Assembly: GCF_020991085.1 (NCBI RefSeq) | Contig: NZ_CP087719.1 | Location: forward strand, 62,001 to 126,000 | Length of the DNA: 64,000 nucleotides | Origin: Roseomonas sp. OT10 | Lineage (GTDB): Bacteria; Pseudomonadota; Alphaproteobacteria; Acetobacterales; Acetobacteraceae | Direction of reading: 5' to 3' | Part shown: positions 8,530-21,040 of the stretch, one piece after another | How positions within the stretch are numbered: position 1 is the first letter of the stretch | How the letters are laid out: each line of letters begins with the position of its first letter | Notes under the pieces: model-generated | What the model was told of the DNA's origin: nothing | Seen by the model: the letters and a program-made list of their open reading frames with translations, nothing else | Database searches by the model: none | Translations under genes and position numbers: made by a program

Positions 8530-11286
8530 ATGAACCTTTCATCGCTTTGGGGAAAAGCCCGGCCGCATCTCGACAATCAGGTCACCGCTCATCCGCTTGT
8601 GGCCCACGCCCTGGACGTCGCCGCCGTCGCGATGCTCCTCCCGGATGCGGATCGCCTGAATCTCGACAGGCGCTGCCTCGGCTTCTTCGTGTCCCTGCAT
8701 GACATCGGGAAGATCTCGCGCGCGTTCCAGGCGCAGGCGCCTGCCCATTGGCCCGCCTCCATTCTCGGTCCTGTCCCTGATGCCGTTCCGGGCTTTCCGC
8801 ACGACGTCATGGGATTGCACCTCCTTACCCACACCGTGCAGACGGAACTGGAGCCGGCCTTCCTGCCCGATGCGAAGGGGCGGCGGAGCTGGGTCAATCC
8901 CCTCCTGCAGGCCCTGGCGGGTCATCACGGCCGTCCGGCTGACGACGGCATCCCTAACGAGGCCGCACTCGGACCCTTGGCGACCGCCGCGGCGAAAGCC
9001 TTCGTCGCCGCCATGCGGGATGCCTTCCGGCCGCCGCCGCTTCCCTGCCCCGGCCGGGATCGTGCCGTGGAACGCCTGGGCTGGCAGCTCGCCGGGCTCG
9101 TCACCCTGGCGGACTGGATCGGCTCCCGGCAGGAATGGTTCCCCTATGTCGCGCCGGATGCGGTGGACGACCCGGCCGGCTACCTCCTGAACCGGGCGCT
9201 GCCGCAGGCGGCGCGGGCGATCGACGCGGCCGGGCTGGGCGCCGCCCCGGTGGCGCCCTTCGGCGGCGTGCGGCGGCTGTTCCCGGGCATCGACCGGCCC
9301 ACCCCCGTCCAGTCCTGGGCGGAGACGGTGGCGCTGCCCCCCGGCCCGGTCCTGGCGGTGATCGAGGACCTGACGGGCAGCGGCAAGACGGAGGCCGCCT
9401 TGACCCTGGCGCATCGGCTCCTGGCCGACAGGAGGGCCGACGGGCTGTTCCTCGCCCTGCCCACCATGGCGACGGCGGGGGCCATGTTCGGCCGGCTGGC
9501 CGGGGCCTACCATCGGCTGTTCGAGGCGTCGGCGCATCCTTCCCTGGCCCTGGCGCATGGCCGCGCCGATCTCGACCCGCGCTTCCGTGCCGCCATCGCC
9601 CGTGAAGGGGAAGCTGCGGCGCCGGACCGCGGCCGCTCCCCGGACGACCCCGCCGACGAGGCGGCCGAGGCGCATTGCGCCGCCTGGCTGGCCGATGACC
9701 GCCGCCGCGCCCTGCTGGCGCAGGTGGGGGTGGGAACGATCGACCAGGCGCTGCTGTCCGTGCTGCCCGTGCGCCACGCGGCGCTGCGGCAGCGCGGGCT
9801 GGCCGGCAAGGTGCTGATCGTGGACGAGGCGCATGCCTTCGACCCGTACATGAACCGCGAGCTGCAGACGTTGCTTTGCTTCCACGCGGCGCTGGGCGGC
9901 TCGGCGATCCTGCTGTCGGCCACGCTGCCGCAGGCCGTGCGACAGGGGCTGGCGGATGCCTTCCGCGAGGGGCTGGAGGCGCCGCGCGCCGCGCTCTCCG
10001 CCACCGCCTATCCGCTGGCGACGCTCGTGGGCGCGACGGGCATCGCCGAGACGCCCTGCGCCCCGCGCGAGGGCCTGCCGCGCCGCGTCGCCGTGACCCA
10101 CCTGCCGGACGAGGCTGCGGCGGTCGCGCGGATCGTGGAAGCCGCGTCGGCCGGCGCCGCCGTGGCCTGGGTGCGCAACACGGTGGACGAGGCGATCGCG
10201 GCCGCGGCCGCGCTGCGCGCGCAGGGCCTCGATCCGATGCTGTTCCACGCCCGCTTCGCCATGGTGGACCGCCTGCGGGTCGAGGCGGAGGTGCTGCGCC
10301 GCTTCGGCCGCGACGGCGACCCGGCCGAGCGGCCCGGCGTGCTGGTGGCGACCCAGGTGGTGGAGCAGTCGCTAGACCTCGACTTCGACCTGCTGGCGAC
10401 GGACCTCGCGCCGATGGACCTGCTGATCCAGCGCGCCGGGCGGCTCTGGCGGCATGCGTGGCGCGGCCCGCGGCCGGTGCCGGGACCGGAGCTGCTGGTG
10501 GTCTCGCCCGAGCCGGCGGCGGACCCGCCCGTGGGCTGGCTGCGCGATGCCCTGCCGGGCACGGCGGCAGTGTACCGCGATCCTGCGCTGCTGTGGCGCA
10601 CGGCGCGGGAGGTGTTCAGGCGCGGCGCGATCGCGACGCCCGAGGACATGCGGCCGCTGATCGAGGCGGCGTATGACCGCGACGCCCCCGGCGCCGTGCC
10701 GCCCGCCCTGGCCCGCGCGGCGCAGGAGGCGGAGGGGAAGGCGCATTCCGCGACCGGGCTGGCCGCGCAGAACGTCCTGGACGTGTGGAAGGGCTACAAG
10801 CGCGAACACGGCGCCTGGGACCCCGACACGAACACGCCGACGCGGCTGGAGGAGCGGGAGACGGTGACGCTGCGGCTCGCGGTGGTGCGGGACGGAAAGG
10901 TGCTGCCCTATGCCGAGGACGCGGACGTGCGGCGGGCCTGGGCGCTGTCGGAGGTGAGCGTCGTGCGAAGCCGCGTCGCGGCCTGCCCGGTGCCGGCGGG
11001 TCTGGGGGCGGCGGCCGAGGAGGCAAGGAAGGGGTGGGGGCGGTGGGAGCGGGAATCGCCGCGGCACCTGCTGGCAGTGGTGGGAGAAGTGCCGAGTATC
11101 CTCCGTACAGGCAACCTCGGGTCGGAAGGCCTAGGTGACGAGGACTGCTTATATTACACAGGGCAGGAGGGTGTATCGTTCAAGCCCAATCCCCGCGCTC
11201 GCGGGGATGATCCGGTGTGTGGGCGGGCAGAGGTGTTCGTTTGCATACAGCAATGTTCCCCGCGCTCGCGGGGATGGCCTCGCTAA
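8530..11286 (+). CDS. cas3: Cas3 nuclease-helicase (type I-E)
   Basis: A 918-residue fusion of an HD nuclease and a DExD/H helicase, recruited by Cascade to degrade target DNA. HD-domain ligands are visible: SLHDIGK (H57-D58), the GHH at 131-133 and TLADWIGS (D195). The helicase follows: Walker A LTGSGKTE (about 281-288), LIVDEAH (about 429-435), ILLSATLP (about 459-466) and QVVEQSLDLDFD. The length fits the family. The odd part is the end: after a plausible native C-terminus (LYYTGQEGVSF), the last ~33 codons are translated from two degenerate CRISPR repeats and their pseudo-spacer, giving PNPRARGDDP and SPRSRGWPR. It is separated from cas8e by 314 bp and is probably transcribed apart from it. 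Confidence 0.95.
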   Translation: MNLSSLWGKARPHLDNQVTAHPLVAHALDVAAVAMLLPDADRLNLDRRCLGFFVSLHDIGKISRAFQAQAPAHWPASILGPVPDAVPGFPHDVMGLHLLTHTVQTELEPAFLPDAKGRRSWVNPLLQALAGHHGRPADDGIPNEAALGPLATAAAKAFVAAMRDAFRPPPLPCPGRDRAVERLGWQLAGLVTLADWIGSRQEWFPYVAPDAVDDPAGYLLNRALPQAARAIDAAGLGAAPVAPFGGVRRLFPGIDRPTPVQSWAETVALPPGPVLAVIEDLTGSGKTEAALTLAHRLLADRRADGLFLALPTMATAGAMFGRLAGAYHRLFEASAHPSLALAHGRADLDPRFRAAIAREGEAAAPDRGRSPDDPADEAAEAHCAAWLADDRRRALLAQVGVGTIDQALLSVLPVRHAALRQRGLAGKVLIVDEAHAFDPYMNRELQTLLCFHAALGGSAILLSATLPQAVRQGLADAFREGLEAPRAALSATAYPLATLVGATGIAETPCAPREGLPRRVAVTHLPDEAAAVARIVEAASAGAAVAWVRNTVDEAIAAAAALRAQGLDPMLFHARFAMVDRLRVEAEVLRRFGRDGDPAERPGVLVATQVVEQSLDLDFDLLATDLAPMDLLIQRAGRLWRHAWRGPRPVPGPELLVVSPEPAADPPVGWLRDALPGTAAVYRDPALLWRTAREVFRRGAIATPEDMRPLIEAAYDRDAPGAVPPALARAAQEAEGKAHSATGLAAQNVLDVWKGYKREHGAWDPDTNTPTRLEERETVTLRLAVVRDGKVLPYAEDADVRRAWALSEVSVVRSRVAACPVPAGLGAAAEEARKGWGRWERESPRHLLAVVGEVPSILRTGNLGSEGLGDEDCLYYTGQEGVSFKPNPRARGDDPVCGRAEVFVCIQQCSPRSRGWPR
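11150..11155 (+). promoter_or_regulatory. candidate -10 box for the pseudo-CRISPR RNA
   Basis: TATATT stands in a short AT-rich island (GCTTATATTACACA) inside the GC-rich cas3 3' end. A start about 7 nt downstream would put a leader of some 24 nt before the first degenerate repeat at 11186. No good -35 box is visible at 16-18 bp, so the evidence is weak. Confidence 0.3.
11186..11281 (+). ncRNA. degenerate two-repeat CRISPR, CreA/CreR-like guide RNA
   Basis: Two degraded copies of the array repeat lie in the array orientation. The first (11186-11214) keeps the stem and the handle end GATGATCCG (24 of the last 25 bases). The second (11253-11281) keeps TGTTCCCCGCG...GGGGATG but has lost the AACCG end. 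They are 67 nt apart (array period 61), flanking a 38-nt pseudo-spacer that begins GTGTGTGGGCGGGCAGAGG. Cas6e could process the RNA into a crRNA-like guide. In known CreA antitoxins and CreR regulators, such guides carry partial matches to a nearby promoter, and one is present here at 11349. The alternative is a dead remnant of a second array. Confidence 0.7.
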
Positions 11287-11345
11287 CTTTCCAGTTCATG
11301 CTTCGAATGAAAGCATCAGTTCGACGACCGTCAATACCATATCTC

Positions 11346-11380
11346 AAGGTGTGAGGGTTAGCAGAAAGTGTTAGTTCGTT
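11346..11380 (+). promoter_or_regulatory. Cascade target site (PAM plus partial protospacer)
   Basis: AAG at 11346-11348 is the canonical type I-E PAM. The following bases GTGTGAGGGTTAGCAGA match the pseudo-spacer of the degenerate CRISPR at positions 1-5, 7-9 and 13-17. Position 6, which is flipped out in type I-E and not read, is one of the mismatches. Beyond position 17 the match is lost, so binding without cleavage is expected. The site lies in the AT-rich stretch (about 11340-11405) where the promoter for the mini-ORF and cas8e should be. The match is seen; repression is inferred. Confidence 0.65.
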
Positions 11381-11441
11381 TTCATTAAAAGTTCTACCTA
11401 AAAAGACTTGACGAGCGATCGCAGGTGCGCCAGCGTCACAG

Positions 11442-11473
11442 GCGACCGACGGGGAGGCACCCCCATCGGTCGC
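11442..11473 (+). promoter_or_regulatory. stem-loop in the cas8e leader
   Basis: GCGACCGACGGGG (11442-11454) pairs with CCCCATCGGTCGC (11461-11473), with one mismatch and a 6-nt loop (AGGCAC). It sits 30 bp ahead of the AGGAGG of the mini-ORF at 11514. It may stabilise the leader RNA or form part of a regulatory fold. Confidence 0.45.
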
Positions 11474-11502
11474 ACTTGTGTCTTGTAAACGCTGGCAAAG
11501 TT

Positions 11503-11590
11503 AGGAGGAGCTGATGTGGCAAACACGCCCCAGAAGAGTCGTTTCGGGCTAAGCCCGTTTACGGCCCTGGAGTGCAAACTCACTCCAGGG
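11503..11590 (+). ncRNA. CreT-like mini-ORF RNA with tandem AGA codons
   Basis: A perfect AGGAGG (11503-11508) lies 5 bp before ATG 11514. The ORF is 12 codons (MWQTRPRRVVSG) and ends TAA at 11550-11552. Codons 7-8 are AGA-AGA (11532-11537), rare arginine codons in a genome that uses CGC/CGG. A short stem (CGGGC/GCCCG, 11545-11557) encloses the stop, and a perfect 10-bp hairpin (11565-11574 with 11581-11590) follows, 10 bp before cas8e. Known CreT toxins are tiny RNAs with a strong Shine-Dalgarno, a start codon, rare codons (AGA) and a stem-loop, which stall ribosomes and sequester a rare tRNA. Alternatively it is a leader-peptide attenuator for the cas operon. Confidence 0.55.
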
Positions 11591-11600
11591 CAACTAAGCC

Positions 11601-13241
11601 ATGAGAGCCCCGATGTTGTCGAGGGTCGAAAATTTGCCGTTCAATCTCGTTGCCGCCCCGTGGCTACCTGTTCTCCGCCATAGCGGAACCCGCAACACCA
11701 TCCGCCCCGCGCAGCTCACCGACCGCATCGACGACGATCCCATCGTCGCACTCGACTGGCCGCGCGCCGACTTCCGGGTTGCCGGGCTGGAATTCCTGAT
11801 CGGCCTGCTCTCCACCACCCTGCCGCCCGCCGAGCACAATGACTGGCTGGACGGCTGGGACACGCCGCCCCTGCCCGAGGCGCTGGACGCCGCCTTCGCG
11901 CCGATCGCCCATGCCTTCGACCTCGACGGCCCCGGCCCGCGCTTCCTGCAGGACCGCGAAGACCTCGTCTCCGACTCCGAACCCGTCGAGCGGCTGCTGA
12001 TCGAGAGTCCCGGCGGCAGCACGAACAGCAAGAACACCGACCTGCTGGTGCGCCGCAACCGCTTCTCGGCCCTCGGCCGCCCGGCGGCGGCGATGGCGCT
12101 CTACACCTTCCAGTCCTGGGCACCGGCGGGCGGCGCCGGCAACCGCACGGGGCTGCGCGGCGGCGGCCCGATGGTGACGCTGGTGGCGCCGGGCAAGGCG
12201 GAGACGCTGTGGCACCTGCTCTGGGCCAATGTCCTGGTGGGCGAGGCGCCGGCGCCCGAGGAGCTGCCGCGCGTCTTCCCGTGGCTGGCACCGACCCTCA
12301 CCTCCGAGGGCGCGACGGTGGTGGTGCCGGAGGTGAATGCCCATCCGCTGCAATGCTGGTGGGGCATGCCGCGCCGCATCCGCCTGGACTTCGCCGAAGC
12401 CGGAGCGCCGACGCCCTGCGACCTGACCGGCGTTCCCGACACGCTGCGCGTCACCGGATGGCGGCAGCGGCCGCGCGGGGCGAACTACGCCGCCTGGGGC
12501 GGACGCCACCCGCTGACGCCGTGCTACCGGCTCAAGCCCGGCAGCGAGGTGCTGCCCCTGCACCCACAGCCCGGCGGTGTCGGCTATCGCCACTGGCTCG
12601 GCTTGGTGACGGAGGGCGATGGCGGGCTGCGGAGCCCGGCCCCTGTCGTCGCCGCGTGGCGGCGCATCGACCGGCGTGCCTATGACGTGGGCCCGCGCAC
12701 CCGCCTGCTCGCGGCCGGCTACGACATGGACAACATGAAGGCCCGCGGCTTCGTGGAAAGCGAGATGCCGCTGCCTGGCGCCGCCGAGCCGGAGGCGCAG
12801 GACGCTCTCGCCCGCGCCCTGGTGCGGTCGGCCGACGCGGTGGCGGGGCTGTTGCGGAACGCGGTGCGCCAGGCGCTGTTCTCCGCCGGCACCACGGTGA
12901 AGCTCGATGCCGAGCTGCTGGCCAGCCAGCGGGAGCGGCTGTGGGAACGCACGGAGGCCGCCTTCTTCGACGCCTTGCTGCGCCAGGGCGAGGAGGCGGA
13001 GCAGGAGGCGATGGCCAAGTGGCTGCGCCTGCTGCGCAGCACGGCGCTGAGCCTGTTCGACGAGGCGGCGCCGCTGCGCCCCGAAACCAGCATGGCCACG
13101 GCCGCCCCACGCATCGCCGCCGCGCGCCGGCGCTTGCTCTTCGCCCTGACAGGCCATGGCAAGGATGGCGTCGCGTTGTTCGGAACCCTCGGCCTGCCCC
13201 TGCCGGTGCCGGCCGCCCAGAGGAAGGGGAAAGCTGCGTGA
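11601..13241 (+). CDS. cas8e: Cas8e (Cse1/CasA), Cascade large subunit
   Basis: A 546-residue type I-E large subunit, which recognises the PAM and recruits Cas3. The family N-terminus is clear (NLPFNLVAAPWLPVLRHSGT, then RPAQLTDRIDDDPIVALDWPRADF). The C-terminal four-helix part is Ala/Leu-rich (LLASQRERLWERTEAAFFD). ATG 11601 is taken as start; ATG 11616 is possible, and neither has a strong ribosome-binding site, although a hairpin ends 10 bp upstream. Its stop overlaps the cse2 start (GTGA). It is the first gene of the tightly packed Cascade-cas1-cas2 operon. Confidence 0.93.
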   Translation: MRAPMLSRVENLPFNLVAAPWLPVLRHSGTRNTIRPAQLTDRIDDDPIVALDWPRADFRVAGLEFLIGLLSTTLPPAEHNDWLDGWDTPPLPEALDAAFAPIAHAFDLDGPGPRFLQDREDLVSDSEPVERLLIESPGGSTNSKNTDLLVRRNRFSALGRPAAAMALYTFQSWAPAGGAGNRTGLRGGGPMVTLVAPGKAETLWHLLWANVLVGEAPAPEELPRVFPWLAPTLTSEGATVVVPEVNAHPLQCWWGMPRRIRLDFAEAGAPTPCDLTGVPDTLRVTGWRQRPRGANYAAWGGRHPLTPCYRLKPGSEVLPLHPQPGGVGYRHWLGLVTEGDGGLRSPAPVVAAWRRIDRRAYDVGPRTRLLAAGYDMDNMKARGFVESEMPLPGAAEPEAQDALARALVRSADAVAGLLRNAVRQALFSAGTTVKLDAELLASQRERLWERTEAAFFDALLRQGEEAEQEAMAKWLRLLRSTALSLFDEAAPLRPETSMATAAPRIAAARRRLLFALTGHGKDGVALFGTLGLPLPVPAAQRKGKAA

Positions 13242-13801
13242 CGCGCGACGAGAGGATCCTCGCCACCGTCGCCTGGTGGCGTCAGCTGCAGCCGGACCCG
13301 CCGCATCGCGCGGGCGACCGCGGCGCCCTGGCCCGACTGCGCCGCTGCGCCAGCGTGGCGGAGGCGATGAACGAGCCCGCCACCATCGACCTCGCACGCC
13401 GTTGCGGCGTCCGCCACCCCGACGCGCTGGTGGAGGTGGCCCTGGCCGCCGCCGTGCTGGCGCATCTGCGGGAGGACCGGCAGGGCATGACGGTGGCGCG
13501 GCAGGTCGGCCCGCAGAACGGGCCGGAGGCGCTGGACACCGCGCTGATGAAGCCGCTGCGCTTCCAGCGGATGATGACGGCCGTCACGCCGGACGAGCGG
13601 CTGGCCGCGATGCGCCGCCTCGTCGCGCTGGCCGGCGGCGCGCTGAACCTGCGCGATCTGGCCGGGGCGCTGCTCTACTGGACGGAGGAGCGCCGCCGCC
13701 ACTGGACCTACGACTACTGGGGCGTCGGCCAGCCGGCCAACCCCCGCCCCTCCCCGAACGCGCCCTCCCCGACCGCGCCCGACAAGGACGACGCCGCATG
13801 A
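13238..13801 (+). CDS. cse2: Cse2 (CasB), Cascade small subunit
   Basis: A 187-residue protein starts at GTG 13238, overlapping the cas8e stop. Cse2 forms a dimer along the Cascade belly and holds the displaced DNA strand. The basic helical pattern is typical: WWRQLQ, GALARLRRC, HPDALVEVALAAAVLAHL, RFQRMMTA, then LAGALLYW near the C-terminus. The length is usual (about 160-200). The end overlaps the cas7 start by ATGA. The Pro-rich tail (about residues 165-187) is longer than in E. coli. Confidence 0.88.
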   Translation: MTRDERILATVAWWRQLQPDPPHRAGDRGALARLRRCASVAEAMNEPATIDLARRCGVRHPDALVEVALAAAVLAHLREDRQGMTVARQVGPQNGPEALDTALMKPLRFQRMMTAVTPDERLAAMRRLVALAGGALNLRDLAGALLYWTEERRRHWTYDYWGVGQPANPRPSPNAPSPTAPDKDDAA

Positions 13802-14877
13802 GCCGCTTCCTGCAGCTCCACCTCCTCACCTTCTTCCCGCCCGCCAACCTCAACCGCGACGACACCGGCCGCCCCAAGACCGCCGTGGTGGGCGGCGCCA
13901 CCCGGCTGCGCCTGTCCTCCCAGGCGCTCAAGCGCGCCTGGCGCACCTCCGAGGTCTTCGCGGCGGCGCTGGCGGACCATATGGGCCAGCGGACCCAGCG
14001 CCTGGGCGAGGATGTGCTGGCGCATCTCAAGGCGGGCGGCATGGCGGAAGACAAGGCGCTGGCCGTCGCCCGCGCCATCGCGGACGTCTTCGGCAAGGTC
14101 AAGGACGCCAAGGACAAGAACCCCGCGCGGATCGAGCAGCTCGCCTTCGTCGCGCCGGAGGAGCGTGCGGCGGCACTGGCGCTGGCCGACCGCGCTCTCG
14201 CCGGGGAGAAGGTGGGCGAGGCCGAGGTCAAGGCCGCCGGCCTGCTGCGCCGCACCGACACCGCGGCCGACATCGCGCTCTTCGGCCGCATGCTGGCCGA
14301 AACCCCCGACTACAACCGCGAGGCGGCGGCGCAGGTGGCGCACGCGATCACCACCCACCGTGTCGCGGTGGAGGACGACTACTACACCGCCGTGGACGAC
14401 CTGAAGCGCCCCAGCGAGGATGCGGGCGCGGGCTTCCTGGGCGAGGCCGCCTTCGGCTCGGGCGTGTTCTACCTCTACCTCTGCGTGGACACCGCGCTGC
14501 TGGCGCGCAACCTCGGCGGCGACGCGGCGCTGGCCGCCACCGCCCTGGGCGCCCTGGCCGAGGCGGCGGCGACCGTGGCGCCGCGCGGCAAGCAGAACTC
14601 CTTCGCCGCGCATGGCCGCGCCGGCTACGTGCTCGCCGAGCGCGGCGACGGCCAGCCGCGCACCCTCGCCGGCGCCTTCGCCGCCCCGGTCGAGCCGGAG
14701 GAGGGGCGCGGCCCCGGCGGATCGGGGAGCGACGTCATGGCCGCCTCGATCGGCCGGCTGCGCGCCTTCCGTGCCGCGCTCGACAAGGCCTATGGCAGCG
14801 CCGCCGAAGCCTCGGCCGAGATGGTGGTGGGCGGCGAGGGGACGCTCGCCGAGATCGTCGCCTTCGCGCGCGGCTGA
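13798..14877 (+). CDS. cas7: Cas7e (Cse4/CasC), Cascade backbone
   Basis: A 359-residue RAMP protein; six copies coat the crRNA guide and cause the flipped-out base every sixth position. Typical features are MSRFLQLHLLTFFPPANLNRD at the start with the RPKTAVVGGATRLRLSSQALK stretch, EDDYYTAVDDL, and the PRGKQNSFAAHG segment near residue 261. ATG 13798 overlaps the cse2 stop. The length is normal. Confidence 0.95.
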   Translation: MSRFLQLHLLTFFPPANLNRDDTGRPKTAVVGGATRLRLSSQALKRAWRTSEVFAAALADHMGQRTQRLGEDVLAHLKAGGMAEDKALAVARAIADVFGKVKDAKDKNPARIEQLAFVAPEERAAALALADRALAGEKVGEAEVKAAGLLRRTDTAADIALFGRMLAETPDYNREAAAQVAHAITTHRVAVEDDYYTAVDDLKRPSEDAGAGFLGEAAFGSGVFYLYLCVDTALLARNLGGDAALAATALGALAEAAATVAPRGKQNSFAAHGRAGYVLAERGDGQPRTLAGAFAAPVEPEEGRGPGGSGSDVMAASIGRLRAFRAALDKAYGSAAEASAEMVVGGEGTLAEIVAFARG

Positions 14878-14881
14878 GCCG

Positions 14882-15649
14882 GTGCCCGCCTACCTCACCT
14901 TCGCCCTCGTCGCGCCGCTGGCCTCCTTCGGCGGCATCGCGGTGGGGGAGCGGCGCGGCGGCTGGGACCGTCCGGCGCGCTCGGCCGTGCTCGGCCTGCT
15001 CGGGGCCTGCCTGGGCGTGGAGCGGGAGGACGATGCGGCCCAGGCGGCGCTGGCGGCGGATTACGGCCTCGCGCTGCTCTGCCACGCGCCCGGCCGGCTG
15101 CTGCCGGACTACCACACGGCCCAGATGCCGCCCGCGCTGCGCAACCGGCGCTTCGCGACCCGGGCGGAGGAGCTGGCCGCGCCGGGGCTGAACACCGTGC
15201 TCTCGCGCCGGGACTACCGCAGCGGCGCCTGGCACCTCGGCGCCCTCTGGGCCCGGGGAGAGGCGCCGCGCTGGTCCCTGGAGCAGTTGCGGGACGCCAT
15301 GGCCCGGCCGACCTTCGTGCCCTATCTCGGCCGCAAATCCTGCCCGCTGGGCCTGCCCCTCGCCCCGGAGATCGCGACGGCGGACGACCCGACCGCCGCC
15401 CTGGAGCGTCGCCGCGCGGAGGGACCGGAGGCGCGCCTGCTTCTGCCCCGGGCGGGCCGGCGCGAGACCCCGCTGCGCGACCTGTTGGCGGACCAGCCCG
15501 CCGATCCGCTCATCGTGCTCGACGCGGCCGATGCGGGCGCCGATCCGCGCCTGCTGCGGGTGGAGATGCGGCGGGACCAGCCGCGCTCCCGCCGCCGCTG
15601 GCAGTTCGACCTGCGGCCGGAGGCCGTGCTGCGCGGGACGGCATCGTGA
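14882..15649 (+). CDS. cas5: Cas5e (CasD), crRNA 5'-handle binder
   Basis: A 255-residue RAMP subunit that grips the 5' handle of the crRNA. GTG 14882 lies 4 bp after the cas7 stop. The Cas5e signature is seen: FALVAPLASFGG, the Arg-rich RPARSAVLGLLGACLG, LLPDYHTAQ, LSRRDYRSGAW, and YLGRKSCPLGLPL around residue 145-160. The stop overlaps the cas6e start (GTGA). Confidence 0.93.
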   Translation: MPAYLTFALVAPLASFGGIAVGERRGGWDRPARSAVLGLLGACLGVEREDDAAQAALAADYGLALLCHAPGRLLPDYHTAQMPPALRNRRFATRAEELAAPGLNTVLSRRDYRSGAWHLGALWARGEAPRWSLEQLRDAMARPTFVPYLGRKSCPLGLPLAPEIATADDPTAALERRRAEGPEARLLLPRAGRRETPLRDLLADQPADPLIVLDAADAGADPRLLRVEMRRDQPRSRRRWQFDLRPEAVLRGTAS

Positions 15650-16346
15650 GCGGACCCTCGGGAGAGCTCTGGCTGTCGCGCATCCGGCTGCGGCGGGAGG
15701 CGCCGGTGGCGGCGCTGGCGCGGCTGCTGGTGCCGGAGGGCGAAGGTGCGCGCACCGCGGCGGGACACCACCTGATCTGGTCCGTCTTCTCCGACGGGCC
15801 GGAACGCCGCCGCGACTTCCTGTGGCGGGAGGAGGCGCCGGGCCGCTTCCTCGCCCTCTCCGCCCGTCGGCCGGAGGACGCCACCGGCCTGTTCACGGTG
15901 GAGAGCCGCCCCTTCGAGCCGGCCCTCGCGCCCGGCGACCGGCTGGGCTTCGCGCTGCGGGCCAACCCCGTGGTGTCCCGCACCGCCGGGCCGGGACGGC
16001 GCGGCCAGCGGCACGACGTGGTGATGGATGCGCTACGCCATGTGCCGCCCGGGCCGGAACGGGCCGAGGCGCGGCCGGCGACCATCCTCTCGGCCGGGCG
16101 CGCCTGGCTGGCGGGACAGGGCGAGCGCCACGGCTTCCGCCCGGACGGCACGGTGGCGGTGGACGGCTATGAGCGCCGGCCGGTGCCGCGGGAGGGGGGC
16201 GGCACGGCGGTCCTCGGGGTGCTGGAGTTCGAGGGCGTGCTGACGGTGGAGGACCCGGCCCGCTTCCTCGCCGCGCTGGCCGCGGGCTTCGGCAAGGCGC
16301 GCGCCTTCGGTCTGGGCCTGATGCTGATCCGCCGCGACAGGCGCTG

Positions 16347-16347
<1 letters not shown>
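15646..16347 (+). CDS. cas6e: Cas6e (CasE), crRNA-processing endonuclease
   Basis: A 233-residue RAMP nuclease that cuts the repeat hairpin and stays on the 3' end. It starts at GTG 15646, overlapping cas5. The likely catalytic His is in AAGHHLIWSVF (H41 or H42), a position comparable to characterised Cas6e enzymes. The C-terminal Gly-rich loop GFGKARAFGLGLMLIRRD is clear. The array repeat it would cleave has a 6-7 bp GC stem that fits. Confidence 0.93.
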
Positions 16348-17628
<1,281 letters not shown>

Positions 17629-17677: not shown

Positions 17678-20600
17678 GTGTTTCCCGCGCTCGCGGGGAT
17701 GAACCGGCGCAGTACGCCACCTATCTGCGCGAATTGGAGTGTTTCCCGCGCTCGCGGGGATGAACCGAGCCTGATCGCTCGGGAGAGCGCAGAGGGCGAG
17801 TGTTTCCCGCGCTCGCGGGGATGAACCGCGCAAGGGCGCCGGCGGCATCCGCCTGCCTCGGTGTTTCCCGCGCTCGCGGGGATGAACCGATCACGGCGCT
17901 GGAGGCCAAGGCTCTGGAGATGTGTTTCCCGCGCTCGCGGGGATGAACCGGCCGGGCGGATCGTGGGCCGTCAGGTCAGGATGTGTTTCCCGCGCTCGCG
18001 GGGATGAACCGAGTGCGCGCGGGAGCGCGAGGCGGAGAAGGCAGTGTTTCCCGCGCTCGCGGGGATGAACCGTTCGCCAGCAGCGTGTCCGCCGACGCCT
18101 CGGGGTGTTTCCCGCGCTCGCGGGGATGAACCGCCGGTGCCGCCCGAGCTGGCCGAGTGGCTGCGGTGTTTCCCGCGCTCGCGGGGATGAACCGCGCCGC
18201 ATGCCCGTCTCGCCGCCGAGATGCGCGTGTTTCCCGCGCTCGCGGGGATGAACCGGAGAGAGCCGCGCGAACGGCGGCAGCATGGGCGTGTTTCCCGCGC
18301 TCGCGGGGATGAACCGGCTCGGGTTGCGGAGAATCTGCCAGGAATCCCGTGTTTCCCGCGCTCGCGGGGATGAACCGGCGTGGCAGCTCCATCACGGCAT
18401 GCAGGACGTGTGTTTCCCGCGCTCGCGGGGATGAACCGACGAATATGGCGCGCAATATAATCAATCCCTTGTGTTTCCCGCGCTCGCGGGGATGAACCGT
18501 CCGTCTTGCCCGTGGCGGCGGACGTAACCATGTGTTTCCCGCGCTCGCGGGGATGAACCGCCCGGGGCCTCCCCGGATGCCAAGCAAAAGGCGTGTTTCC
18601 CGCGCTCGCGGGGATGAACCGCAGCGGGAGGATGAGGAAAACGACGGGTGGATGTGTTTCCCGCGCTCGCGGGGATGAACCGCGACACGAGCTGCGAAGG
18701 CGCCTTCGAGAGCAGTGTTTCCCGCGCTCGCGGGGATGAACCAAGCAAGCGGCGTCGATCACGCCGACAACAGGCGTGTTTCTCGCGCTCGCGGGGATGA
18801 ACCGCCTTGGCCAAAGCCCTCGACAGGCAAGCCATGGTGTTTCCCGCGCTCGCGGGGATGAACCGGGGCGGTGGTTCTGGGAGCCGCCTGCTCGGCTGTG
18901 TTTCCCGCGCTCGCGGGGATGAACCGGACAGGACACGAAGCTCCACCGACACCACGCCGTGTTTCCCGCGCTCGCGGGGATGAACCGGTATAGGTGGCCG
19001 CCGTGGCGCCGGAGATGTCGTGTTTCCCGCGCTCGCGGGGATGAACCGGCCTCGGAGATGCGCGAGCGGGGCACGGCGACGTGTTTCCCGCGCTCGCGGG
19101 GATGAACCGGAACTCTCGAACAGGCCGTCGAGCAGGGAGGAGTGTTTCCCGCGCTCGCGGGGATGAACCGGCTGTCCAGGGCGCTCCCGTTGCTCACGGA
19201 GCGTGTTTCCCGCGCTCGCGGGGATGAACCGACCGGGTTGGCGGCGTTGCTCTGGATCGTGGCGTGTTTCCCGCGCTCGCGGGGATGAACCGCTCACAGG
19301 TCTTCGTCGTTCTCGATTCCGCCGGTGTTTCCCGCGCTCGCGGGGATGAACCGGCACTGCGGCTGCTGTTCACCCCGGGCGGCAGGTGTTTCCCGCGCTC
19401 GCGGGGATGAACCCTCACCACCACCGCCACGACGCGAACCCAGTCCGTGTTTCCCGCGCTCGCGGGGATGAACCGGTCAGGGCGGTCACGGCGGTTTCCA
19501 TAGGGGGGTGTTTCCCGCGCTCGCGGGGATGAACCGGTGCAGTGGTGGCTCGCCCAGTTGGATCGCTAGTGTTTCCCGCGCTCGCGGGGATGAACCGAAC
19601 GGCGGCTTCATGATGGACCGCTGGCGCCCGTGTTTCCCGCGCTCGCGGGGATGAACCGACCTGGGGAGATCACCCTCCGGGCCGCCCGGGGTGTTTCCCG
19701 CGCTCGCGGGGATGAACCGACCTGGGGAGATCACCCTCCGGGCCGCCCGGGGTGTTTCCCGCGCTCGCGGGGATGAACCGGTATGGCCCGAGGGGGCGGT
19801 CAGGCGCGTATCGTGTTTCCCGCGCTCGCGGGGATGAACCGGCCCGCGCCACCGCCTCGGTGACGCCCCACATGTGTTTCCCGCGCTCGCGGGGATGAAC
19901 CGCCCTCGCCCGACACGTCCGGCTCGATGTACGCGTGTTTCCCGCGCTCGCGGGGATGAACCGCCATCCTCGCGGGGGATTCCGAGGACGAGGACGTGTT
20001 TCCCGCGCTCGCGGGGATGAACCGACGAAGTGCGCCCGGATGTCATCGTCCCATTGGTGTTTCCCGCGCTCGCGGGGATGAACCGGAGGGCGATACGCTC
20101 TCCGTGGCCTACGGCAAGTGTTCCCCGCGCTCGCGGGGATGAACCGTTGGCGCCGGCAATGGAATGCACGGAGGTACCGTGTTCCCCGCGCTCGCGGGGA
20201 TGAACCGGGCGATACCCCTCCGATTCCTGGCATGCCGGAGTGTTCCCCGCGCTCGCGGGGATGAACCGACCCCCGTGGTGCCGGAGCAGTACAGGCCCCG
20301 GTGTTCCCCGCGCTCGCGGGGATGAACCGACGTTGGTGATCGTGCCGCCGGCGATGGTGACGTGTTCCCCGCGCTCGCGGGGATGAACCGTTGCCCGCCG
20401 CGGCGAGGTCGGGGCAGTCGGAGTGTTCCCCGCGCTCGCGGGGATGAACCGCTGGTCTTCGGGGGCAGGGATCCGGATGCGTTGTGTTCCCCGCGCTCGC
20501 GGGGATGAACCGGACTCCGTCTCGGCTGCCCTCGCGGTGCGGATGTGTTCCCCGCGCTCGCGGGGATGAACCGCTCGCCGCCTACCTGCCGCGGCAGCCG

Positions 20601-20756
20601 GAGCAGTGTTCCCCGCGCTCGCGGGGATGAACCGCCGCTCCCGCTGGCCGCCACCCGGTACTCGGAGTGTTCCCCGCGCTCGCGGGGATGAACCGTACCA
20701 GCGCGCCCGCCCGCAGCCGGCGTTATGGTGTTCCCCGCGCTCGCGGGGATGAACCT
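17678..20756 (+). CRISPR. type I-E CRISPR array, 51 repeats, 50 spacers
   Basis: Repeats of 29 bp alternate with 32-bp spacers at an exact 61-bp period from 17678 to the last repeat at 20728. The repeat starts GTGTTTCCCGCG or GTGTTCCCCGCG and ends GGGGATGAACCG; a GC stem surrounds CT. Repeats 1-40 carry T at position 6 and repeats 41-51 carry C, with a clean switch at 20118. Single variants: repeat 18 (18715) ends A, repeat 19 (18776) has TTTCTCGCG, repeat 29 (19386) ends C, and the last ends T. Two adjacent spacers (19659-19690 and 19720-19751) are identical. Orientation is set by the cas2-side leader and the terminal degeneration. Confidence 0.99.
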
Positions 20757-20797: not shown

Positions 20798-21040
20798 ATG
20801 GAAACCGTCAATATCCACGCGGCCAAGACGCAGCTCTCGCGCTTGGTCGATGCCGCCGCCGCCGGGCAGGAGATCGTGATCGCTCGCGCCGGCAAGCCTG
20901 TGGCCAAGCTCGTGCCCCTCGACGGTCCGATAAGGAGGCCGCGGAGAGTGCTGGGCAGCTTGTCCGGCCACCTGCGGGTGCCGACAGACTTCGACGTGCC
21001 ACTGCCAGACGAGGTACTGGACGCCTTCGGGACGCGCTGA
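20798..21040 (+). CDS. Phd/YefM-family antitoxin
   Basis: An 80-residue protein with the Phd/YefM N-terminus: METVNIHAAKTQLSRLVDAAAAGQEIVIARAGKPVAKLVPL. This fold binds operator DNA, while the C-terminal tail (VPLPDEVLDAFGTR) would wrap the toxin. It overlaps the toxin gene by one base (TGATG). It is the first gene after the CRISPR array, in the same orientation. Confidence 0.9.
   Translation: METVNIHAAKTQLSRLVDAAAAGQEIVIARAGKPVAKLVPLDGPIRRPRRVLGSLSGHLRVPTDFDVPLPDEVLDAFGTR

Follow-up and report, generated by a model that had tools for sequence, protein, structure and literature searches.

A candidate type I-E CreTA addiction module between cas3 and cas8e in Roseomonas sp. OT10 and related loci

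The cas3-cas8e interval and creA

In this study, we analysed a stretch of 64,000 nucleotides (nt) from Roseomonas sp. OT10 (contig NZ_CP087719.1, positions 62,001 to 126,000; hereafter the window), in which the interval between cas3 and cas8e carries the layout of a putative CreTA module, that is, an addiction module tied to clustered regularly interspaced short palindromic repeats (CRISPR) and formed by a CRISPR RNA (crRNA)-like antitoxin guide, CreA, and a toxin, CreT. The cas gene set and the array identify the locus as a type I-E CRISPR system, and the host genome has a size of 5.69 Mb. Positions below are those of the window, and the features given lie on the + strand. The cas3 open reading frame (ORF; 8530..11286) matched cas3_core above its cut-off and PRK09694.1 below its cut-off (E value 1.3e-132), and the cas8e (Cse1/CasA) ORF (11601..13241) matched TIGR02547 with an E value of 3.1e-78. 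The rest of the operon, cas7, cas5, cas6e, cas1e and cas2, follows within 13156..17628 (outer limits of the ORFs), and the CRISPR array (17678..20756) consists of a 29-nt repeat and 32-nt spacers with a period of 61 bp. An earlier note on this DNA had placed the cas8e start at the first ATG (11601). Nearly full-length matches to cas8e homologues begin at residues 4-14, commonly 10-14, of the window ORF, and the start is therefore probably TTG 11634, which is residue 12.

The putative creA is composed of a first degenerate repeat (psiR1, 11186..11214), a pseudo-spacer of 38 nt, that is 32+6 (psiS, 11215..11252), and a second degenerate repeat (psiR2, 11253..11281), and it lies, as in CreTA modules, directly beside the cas operon. 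In psiR1 the 5' end of the array repeat is lost, while the hairpin and the last 8 nt, which form the 5' handle of the guide, are kept with 7 of 8 positions conserved (ATGATCCG as compared with ATGAACCG in the array). In psiR2 the handle is lost and the hairpin half, on the side of the 3' handle, is kept. This division follows the published rule of CreA repeat degeneration, in which psiR1 retains the handle and psiR2 the other part (PMC8501985; PMC9458426). Both copies could be aligned to the array repeat and each is predicted to fold as its hairpin, and the two degenerate repeats around a pseudo-spacer described in the earlier note were thus recovered. An Rfam scan with E values up to 1 returned three matches, all under the family cut-offs, one of them a CRISPR repeat family on psiR2. 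By eye, the array repeat itself switches from GTGTTTCCC to GTGTTCCCC distally, from about 20117, and psiR2 resembles the GTGTTCCCC form.

The cas3 ORF of the window spans all of creA, with its stop 2 nt past psiR2. The position of the cas3 stop was surveyed in 24 of 26 modules (the 23 modules of the scan described below plus L008, L033 and L046, with L081 and L102 left out; L numbers denote loci). The stop codon falls within psiR1 in 17 of the 24, and in 11 of those 17 it is the TGA of gggaTGAaccg; it lies before psiR1 in 5, and cas3 continues past psiR1 in 2, namely the window and L043. These positions place creA at the very end of, or within, cas3. The simplest inference is that CreA would be supplied by cas3 transcription, with an internal promoter as the alternative.

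Guide-target pairing and the length of psiS

Downstream of creA, an AAG protospacer adjacent motif (PAM; 11346..11348) precedes the candidate CreA target (11349..11380), which matches psiS at positions 1-5, 7-9 and 13-17 and differs from its first 17 nt at positions 6, 10, 11 and 12. In type I-E crRNA, bases 6, 12, 18, 24 and 30 are flipped out (PMC5965380), and because positions 6 and 12 are thereby kept from pairing, the seed-side match amounts to 13 of 15 usable positions in spite of the mismatches at 10-11. When psiS was shuffled with its composition preserved and compared with the same region, again with an AAG PAM, 6 of 200,000 shuffles scored as well as the window pair. Moreover, a genome-wide search for the gapped AAG-target pattern gave a single occurrence, as compared with 0 for the reversed-pattern control. 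These figures bear out the earlier claim that an AAG is followed by a partial copy of the pseudo-spacer.

Regions upstream of cas8e were collected from the window and 110 further loci, the last homologue search having supplied the best 80 of 416 candidates. Exact deduplication left 105 regions, clustering by shared 50-mers 87, and dropping 8 with a real array 79. Modules of psiR1-psiS-psiR2 were defined by a repeat-hairpin pattern in 13 regions, four known duplicates being left out. The best downstream AAG-flanked site scored 11-15 of 15 in 11 of these 13 modules, and none of 156 pairings between the psiS of one locus and the region of another scored above 10; among 26,000 shuffled psiS sequences, 17 reached 11, 5 reached 12 and none reached 13 or more. 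Across the 11 modules, positions 1-5 and 7 match in all 11, positions 8-10 in 9, position 11 in 8, positions 13-15 in 9-10, positions 16-17 in 7 and positions 18-30 in 1 to 6. Positions 6 and 12, at which the bases are flipped out in type I-E, match in only 2 of 11, and both are dispensable in the CreA of Halobacterium hubeiense (PMC8501985). The psiS sequences mostly differ between loci while the pairing is kept, and therefore guide and target have changed together; the matching is evolved targeting and not chance.

Furthermore, a de novo scan, whose only requirements were 8 nt resembling the repeat handle and an AAG-flanked target with at least 12/15 matches, found a guide-target pair in 23 of the 79 regions, as compared with 1 of 3950 Markov-randomised regions and 0 of 79 reverse complements. 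Conservation of the pairing in relatives, on which the prediction had been staked beforehand, was thus found in these 23 regions and, with the signature at positions 6 and 12, in the 11 hairpin-defined modules. The hosts of modules include Humitalea rosea, Siccirubricoccus phaeus, Roseomonas sp. GC11, Gluconacetobacter diazotrophicus, Komagataeibacter melomenusus, Acetobacter farinalis, A. indonesiensis, Stella vacuolata, a Paracoccus metagenome-assembled genome and a Roseinatronobacter. A looser scan of the reverse strand (A[AT]G PAMs) gave one match with a poor handle, in L043 and its duplicate L020, and this was taken as a mirror of the locus's own pair or as chance. In the genomes G012, G005 and G030 (regions L014, L012 and L016), cas8e was matched in pieces and the de novo scan found no module; a tie between module absence and a broken cas8e was set aside, since these cases were too few to count.

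Cascades of altered size are known from altered crRNAs. The length of psiS was read in 25 modules in one register (L081 by eye; L034, readable as 20 or 40, taken as 20; L102 left out), which gave 20 nt in 2 modules, 21 in 4, 26 in 4, 27 in 1, 31 in 1, 32 in 4, 33 in 6, 34 in 2 and 38 in 1. In 22 of the 25 the length equals 32+6k or one more, and all 12 modules outside the 32 class fit. Under a null that assumes uniform lengths, this fit has P 2e-5 (n=12), or P 2e-4 for the 9 modules that remain after collapsing look-alikes. When periods of 4 to 11 were tried, 6 was best and 5 next, the periodicity having been noticed after the fact. The Cas7 subunits kink the crRNA at every sixth position (PMC5965380), and the number of Cas7 subunits depends on crRNA length (PMC6828817). 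The steps may therefore be read as Cascades that lack two or one of the Cas7 subunits, have the usual number or carry one more.

The creT cassette and its rare codons

Between the target and cas8e, the window carries a cassette with the parts of a CreT. A weak candidate promoter (TTGACG-17-CAGCGT, 11408..11436), which the consensus scan did not pick out, is followed by a 5' stem-loop (11442..11473; z score -5.3), whose counterparts in relatives differ in sequence. A Shine-Dalgarno sequence, AGGAGG (11503..11508), then leads to a mini-ORF of 12 codons (11514..11552; peptide MWQTRPRRVVSG), which starts with ATG 11514 and has AGA-AGA as codons 7-8 (11532-11537). A 3' stem-loop without a T-run lies after the mini-ORF at about 11564..11591 (z score of 11545-11600, -6.1). 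The fold of the whole 11437-11600 has a z score of -5.6, and the mini-ORF is partly paired in it. The stem-loops, the perfect AGGAGG and the 12-codon ORF with tandem AGA that the earlier note had listed could all be located, and the strong Shine-Dalgarno sequence, start, tandem rare codons and stem-loop of a CreT are present at the sequence level.

The rarity of AGA was assessed in 214 host ORFs with a GC content at third codon positions (GC3) of at least 0.8 (96,189 codons), a filter that favours GC-ending codons. In this set AGA accounts for 36 of 96,189 codons (0.37 per 1000), and AGA-AGA for none of 95,975 codon pairs. Moreover, 645 AGGAGG sites were counted in 500 kb of the genome, and none of them was followed by a start and an AGA-AGA pair. 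Of the 45 tRNA places of the genome, a single one is a gene for tRNA-Arg(UCU).

In many of the related loci, the target is likewise followed by a strong stem-loop of unrelated sequence, then by a Shine-Dalgarno sequence and then by a mini-ORF. Mini-ORFs were inspected in 19 loci, and 15 were used; L034, L037, L066 and L074, none of them convincing, were left out. Codons of a rare set (AGA, ATA, TTA, CTA and TCA) were counted per position out of 13, L116 ending earlier and L048 being interrupted. Codons 7 and 8 each belong to this set in 10 of 13 mini-ORFs, as compared with counts of 0 to 3 at the remaining positions between codons 2 and 12; the background is 0.9%. The pair at codons 7-8 is AGA-AGA in the window, L041, L058, L092 and L008, ATA-ATA in L059, AGA-TTA in L064 and L033, and TCA-AGA in L042. 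Off this pattern, L069, L110 and L116 have rare codons elsewhere, L052 has TTA at codon 7 only, and L083 has ATA-TTA at codons 8-9.

Two further observations concern the array and its surroundings. An adjacent, apparently identical pair of spacers was seen by eye at 19660-19781, and the first 34 residues of the ORF directly 3' of the array (20800-20901) show a match to the Phd/YefM antitoxin family, which points to a possible type II toxin-antitoxin system beside the array.

The CreTA reading, its rivals and its meaning

The module of the window is likely a type I-E CreTA addiction module whose CreT would sequester tRNA-Arg(UCU). This reading, first put forward in the earlier note, draws support from pairing conserved across differing sequences, from the signature at positions 6 and 12, and from the kept position of the rare-codon slot. 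Transcription, processing, repression and toxicity would be expected to proceed as follows. The creA element (11186-11281) would be transcribed with the 3' end of cas3, Cas6e would cut at both degenerate hairpins, and the guide would load into the cell's own Cascade. Because little past nt 17 of psiS can pair, we propose that Cascade bound at the AAG target upstream of creT would form no full R-loop and would repress without cutting. When Cascade is lost or blocked, creT would be made, as an RNA that is structured and has a very strong Shine-Dalgarno sequence. Its mini-ORF would then bring ribosomes onto AGA-AGA, tying up the tRNA-Arg(UCU) supplied by a single gene, and growth would stop.

The arrangement is similar to the CreTA modules of Haloarcula hispanica (type I-B) and Halobacterium hubeiense, which have degenerate repeats, a PAM-flanked partial target upstream of creT, a start, tandem rare codons (AGA-AGA or AUA-AUA, the latter in H. 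hubeiense) and a stem-loop. The strong Shine-Dalgarno sequence is common to the window and the H. hispanica CreT, whose Shine-Dalgarno sequence, start, tandem AGA and stem-loop were reported as critical (PMC8501985). Furthermore, an enlarged CreT derived from that of H. hispanica, with more rare codons, was toxic in Escherichia coli (PMC12362730). However, the mini-ORFs of the haloarchaeal modules have 4 or 6 codons, AGA follows right after the start in H. hispanica, and the sections of the report drawn on here mention no 5' stem-loop in their CreT (PMC8501985). The window module, in contrast, is bacterial and of type I-E, has a 5' stem-loop, carries its rare codons at 7-8, matches its target to about position 17 and has a creA overlapped by cas3. 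The CreTA of Citrobacter rodentium shares type I-E and the cas3-casA interval, and its Cascade-repressed toxin was demonstrated by genetics, but its creA is on the opposite strand, its 96-bp ORF has no rare codons, its PAM is ATG, and toxicity needs translation of the ORF (PMC12055562). In Acinetobacter WCHA45, a type I-F CreTA module is also bacterial and occupies the cas3-csy1 interval with a Shine-Dalgarno sequence and a mini-ORF; there, however, the mini-ORF is divergent from creA, the seed rule is not followed, and RNA toxicity was tied to specific codons and a hairpin, not to rare codons (PMC10097628).

The CreR regulators use a crRNA-like guide to direct Cascade to the promoter of the cas operon, generally without a coupled toxin gene (reviewed in PMC12737573). 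It is conceivable, but in our judgement unlikely, that the window module belongs to this class, in which case the guide would repress the cas8e operon at its promoter, and the structured leader, mini-ORF included, would only tune cas8e, no toxin being involved. Scans of the window found no promoter or terminator between the target and cas8e, and no terminator anywhere in 11000-11700; one promoter may therefore serve both creT and cas8e, and Cascade could control creT together with its own operon. The promoter and terminator scans thus leave room for the combined CreTA and CreR function that the earlier note had suggested as a possibility. The interval of H. hispanica creTA is also reported to carry a strong promoter for the downstream cas genes (PMC9458426). 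Moreover, L019, L040, L043 and L060 carry creA and a target; in these loci the PAM and the cas8e match are 66-133 nt apart, and no mini-ORF cassette is visible. These four are probably CreR-type autoregulators, and both types seem to exist at the cas3-cas8e site among the relatives; this sorting of the 23 scan positives leaves aside L034, L037, L066, L074, L081 and L102. For the window itself, a pure CreR role would leave unexplained the CreT-like cassette with its strong Shine-Dalgarno sequence, the rare pair at codons 7-8, and the switch from AGA-AGA to ATA-ATA or AGA-TTA in relatives. In addition, the start of the L008 mini-ORF lies 292 nt upstream of the cas8e match, and a terminator-like site follows the mini-ORF in 2 of 15 loci (L048 and L110).

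In a classic attenuator, tandem codons in a short leader are followed by stem-loops upstream of an operon. The window has a similar layout, with the mini-ORF partly paired in the predicted fold, and stalling of a leader peptide at AGA-AGA could switch the downstream stem-loops and so control cas8e. This is highly improbable, since the window scan found no T-run terminator, the slot codons vary among Arg, Ile, Leu and Ser in relatives, and the Cascade target would be left without explanation. Least probable of all is a mini-array in decay whose partial self-match arose by chance, a view that the partial decay of some relatives (no good target in L046, an interrupted mini-ORF in L048) would suit and that the shuffle and cross-locus controls, the pairs in 23 of 79 regions and the signature at positions 6 and 12 make very unlikely.

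Several observations weigh against the CreTA reading. The seed mismatches of the window at positions 10 and 11, with 13-17 matching instead, stand against the CreA of H. hubeiense, in which a change at any of positions 1-5 or 7-11 abolished repression (PMC8501985). The consensus scan of 11000-11700 found no sigma-70 promoter for creA or creT, and the AT-rich stretch that the earlier note had called promoter-like was not scored as one. The candidate -35 element lies 62 nt past the PAM, as compared with 23-40 nt in 15 of 20 relatives for a -35-like TTG motif, which was loosely defined; Cascade may therefore bind too far upstream, or a different promoter is the real one. A GTG start 2 nt further on, ranked slightly above the ATG by an automatic rule, opens a frame without AGA, although ATG 11514 is preferred because of its start strength and the frame common to relatives. 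The rare-codon set was picked after the mini-ORFs had been seen, and the starts in the window, L008 and L048 were picked with the AGA frame in view, starts being otherwise assigned by Shine-Dalgarno spacing. Without the GC3 filter, AGA reaches 2.8-3.0 per 1000 in the ORFs of the window, a frequency that may come partly from spurious ORFs. Counted locus by locus in the respective ORFs, AGA spans 0 to 6.4 per 1000, highest in L092. Among the relatives, the mini-ORF of L048 is interrupted at codon 2, 4 of the 19 loci inspected (L034, L037, L066 and L074) have no convincing mini-ORF, L008 and L046 have creA-like repeats without a good AAG target, and cas8e is present without the module in Roseomonas mucosa and in two further genomes of this genus.

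Our literature search, which covered neither Li et al. 2021 nor the supplement of PMC8501985, found no paper naming CreTA in Acetobacteraceae or at these loci. Bacterial CreTA modules were predicted by Li et al. 2021 (Science), as cited in PMC8501985, and some of the present loci may already have been predicted there or in that supplement. What appears new, judged from the DNA alone, is a bacterial, type I-E variant of CreTA of the tRNA-sequestering kind, with the cas3 stop inside psiR1, the 6-nt steps of psiS length and CreR-like relatives as further features. Tentatively, and with less than even confidence, three features can be joined in one reading. The modules would form a widespread bacterial group of type I-E CreTA, with a CreT whose fixed slot of two rare codons (7-8) is re-aimed between tRNA-Arg(UCU), tRNA-Ile(CAU) and rare Leu or Ser tRNAs. 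The creA would be a fusion with the cas3 3' end, the antitoxin being made through transcription of cas3. The steps of psiS (20-21, 26-27, 31-34 and 38 nt) would reflect Cascades dedicated to regulation and built with a lower or higher number of Cas7 subunits, probably one extra in the window.

If these readings are true, tRNA-sequestering CRISPR addiction, known in nature only from haloarchaea in the literature cited here, would extend to a large bacterial family. A single cassette would be re-aimable at different rare tRNAs with codons 7-8 kept as its slot, and the 6-nt steps would be evidence that regulatory Cascades of altered size occur naturally. The layout common to these loci offers a practical route to such modules in spite of the absence of sequence similarity among them.

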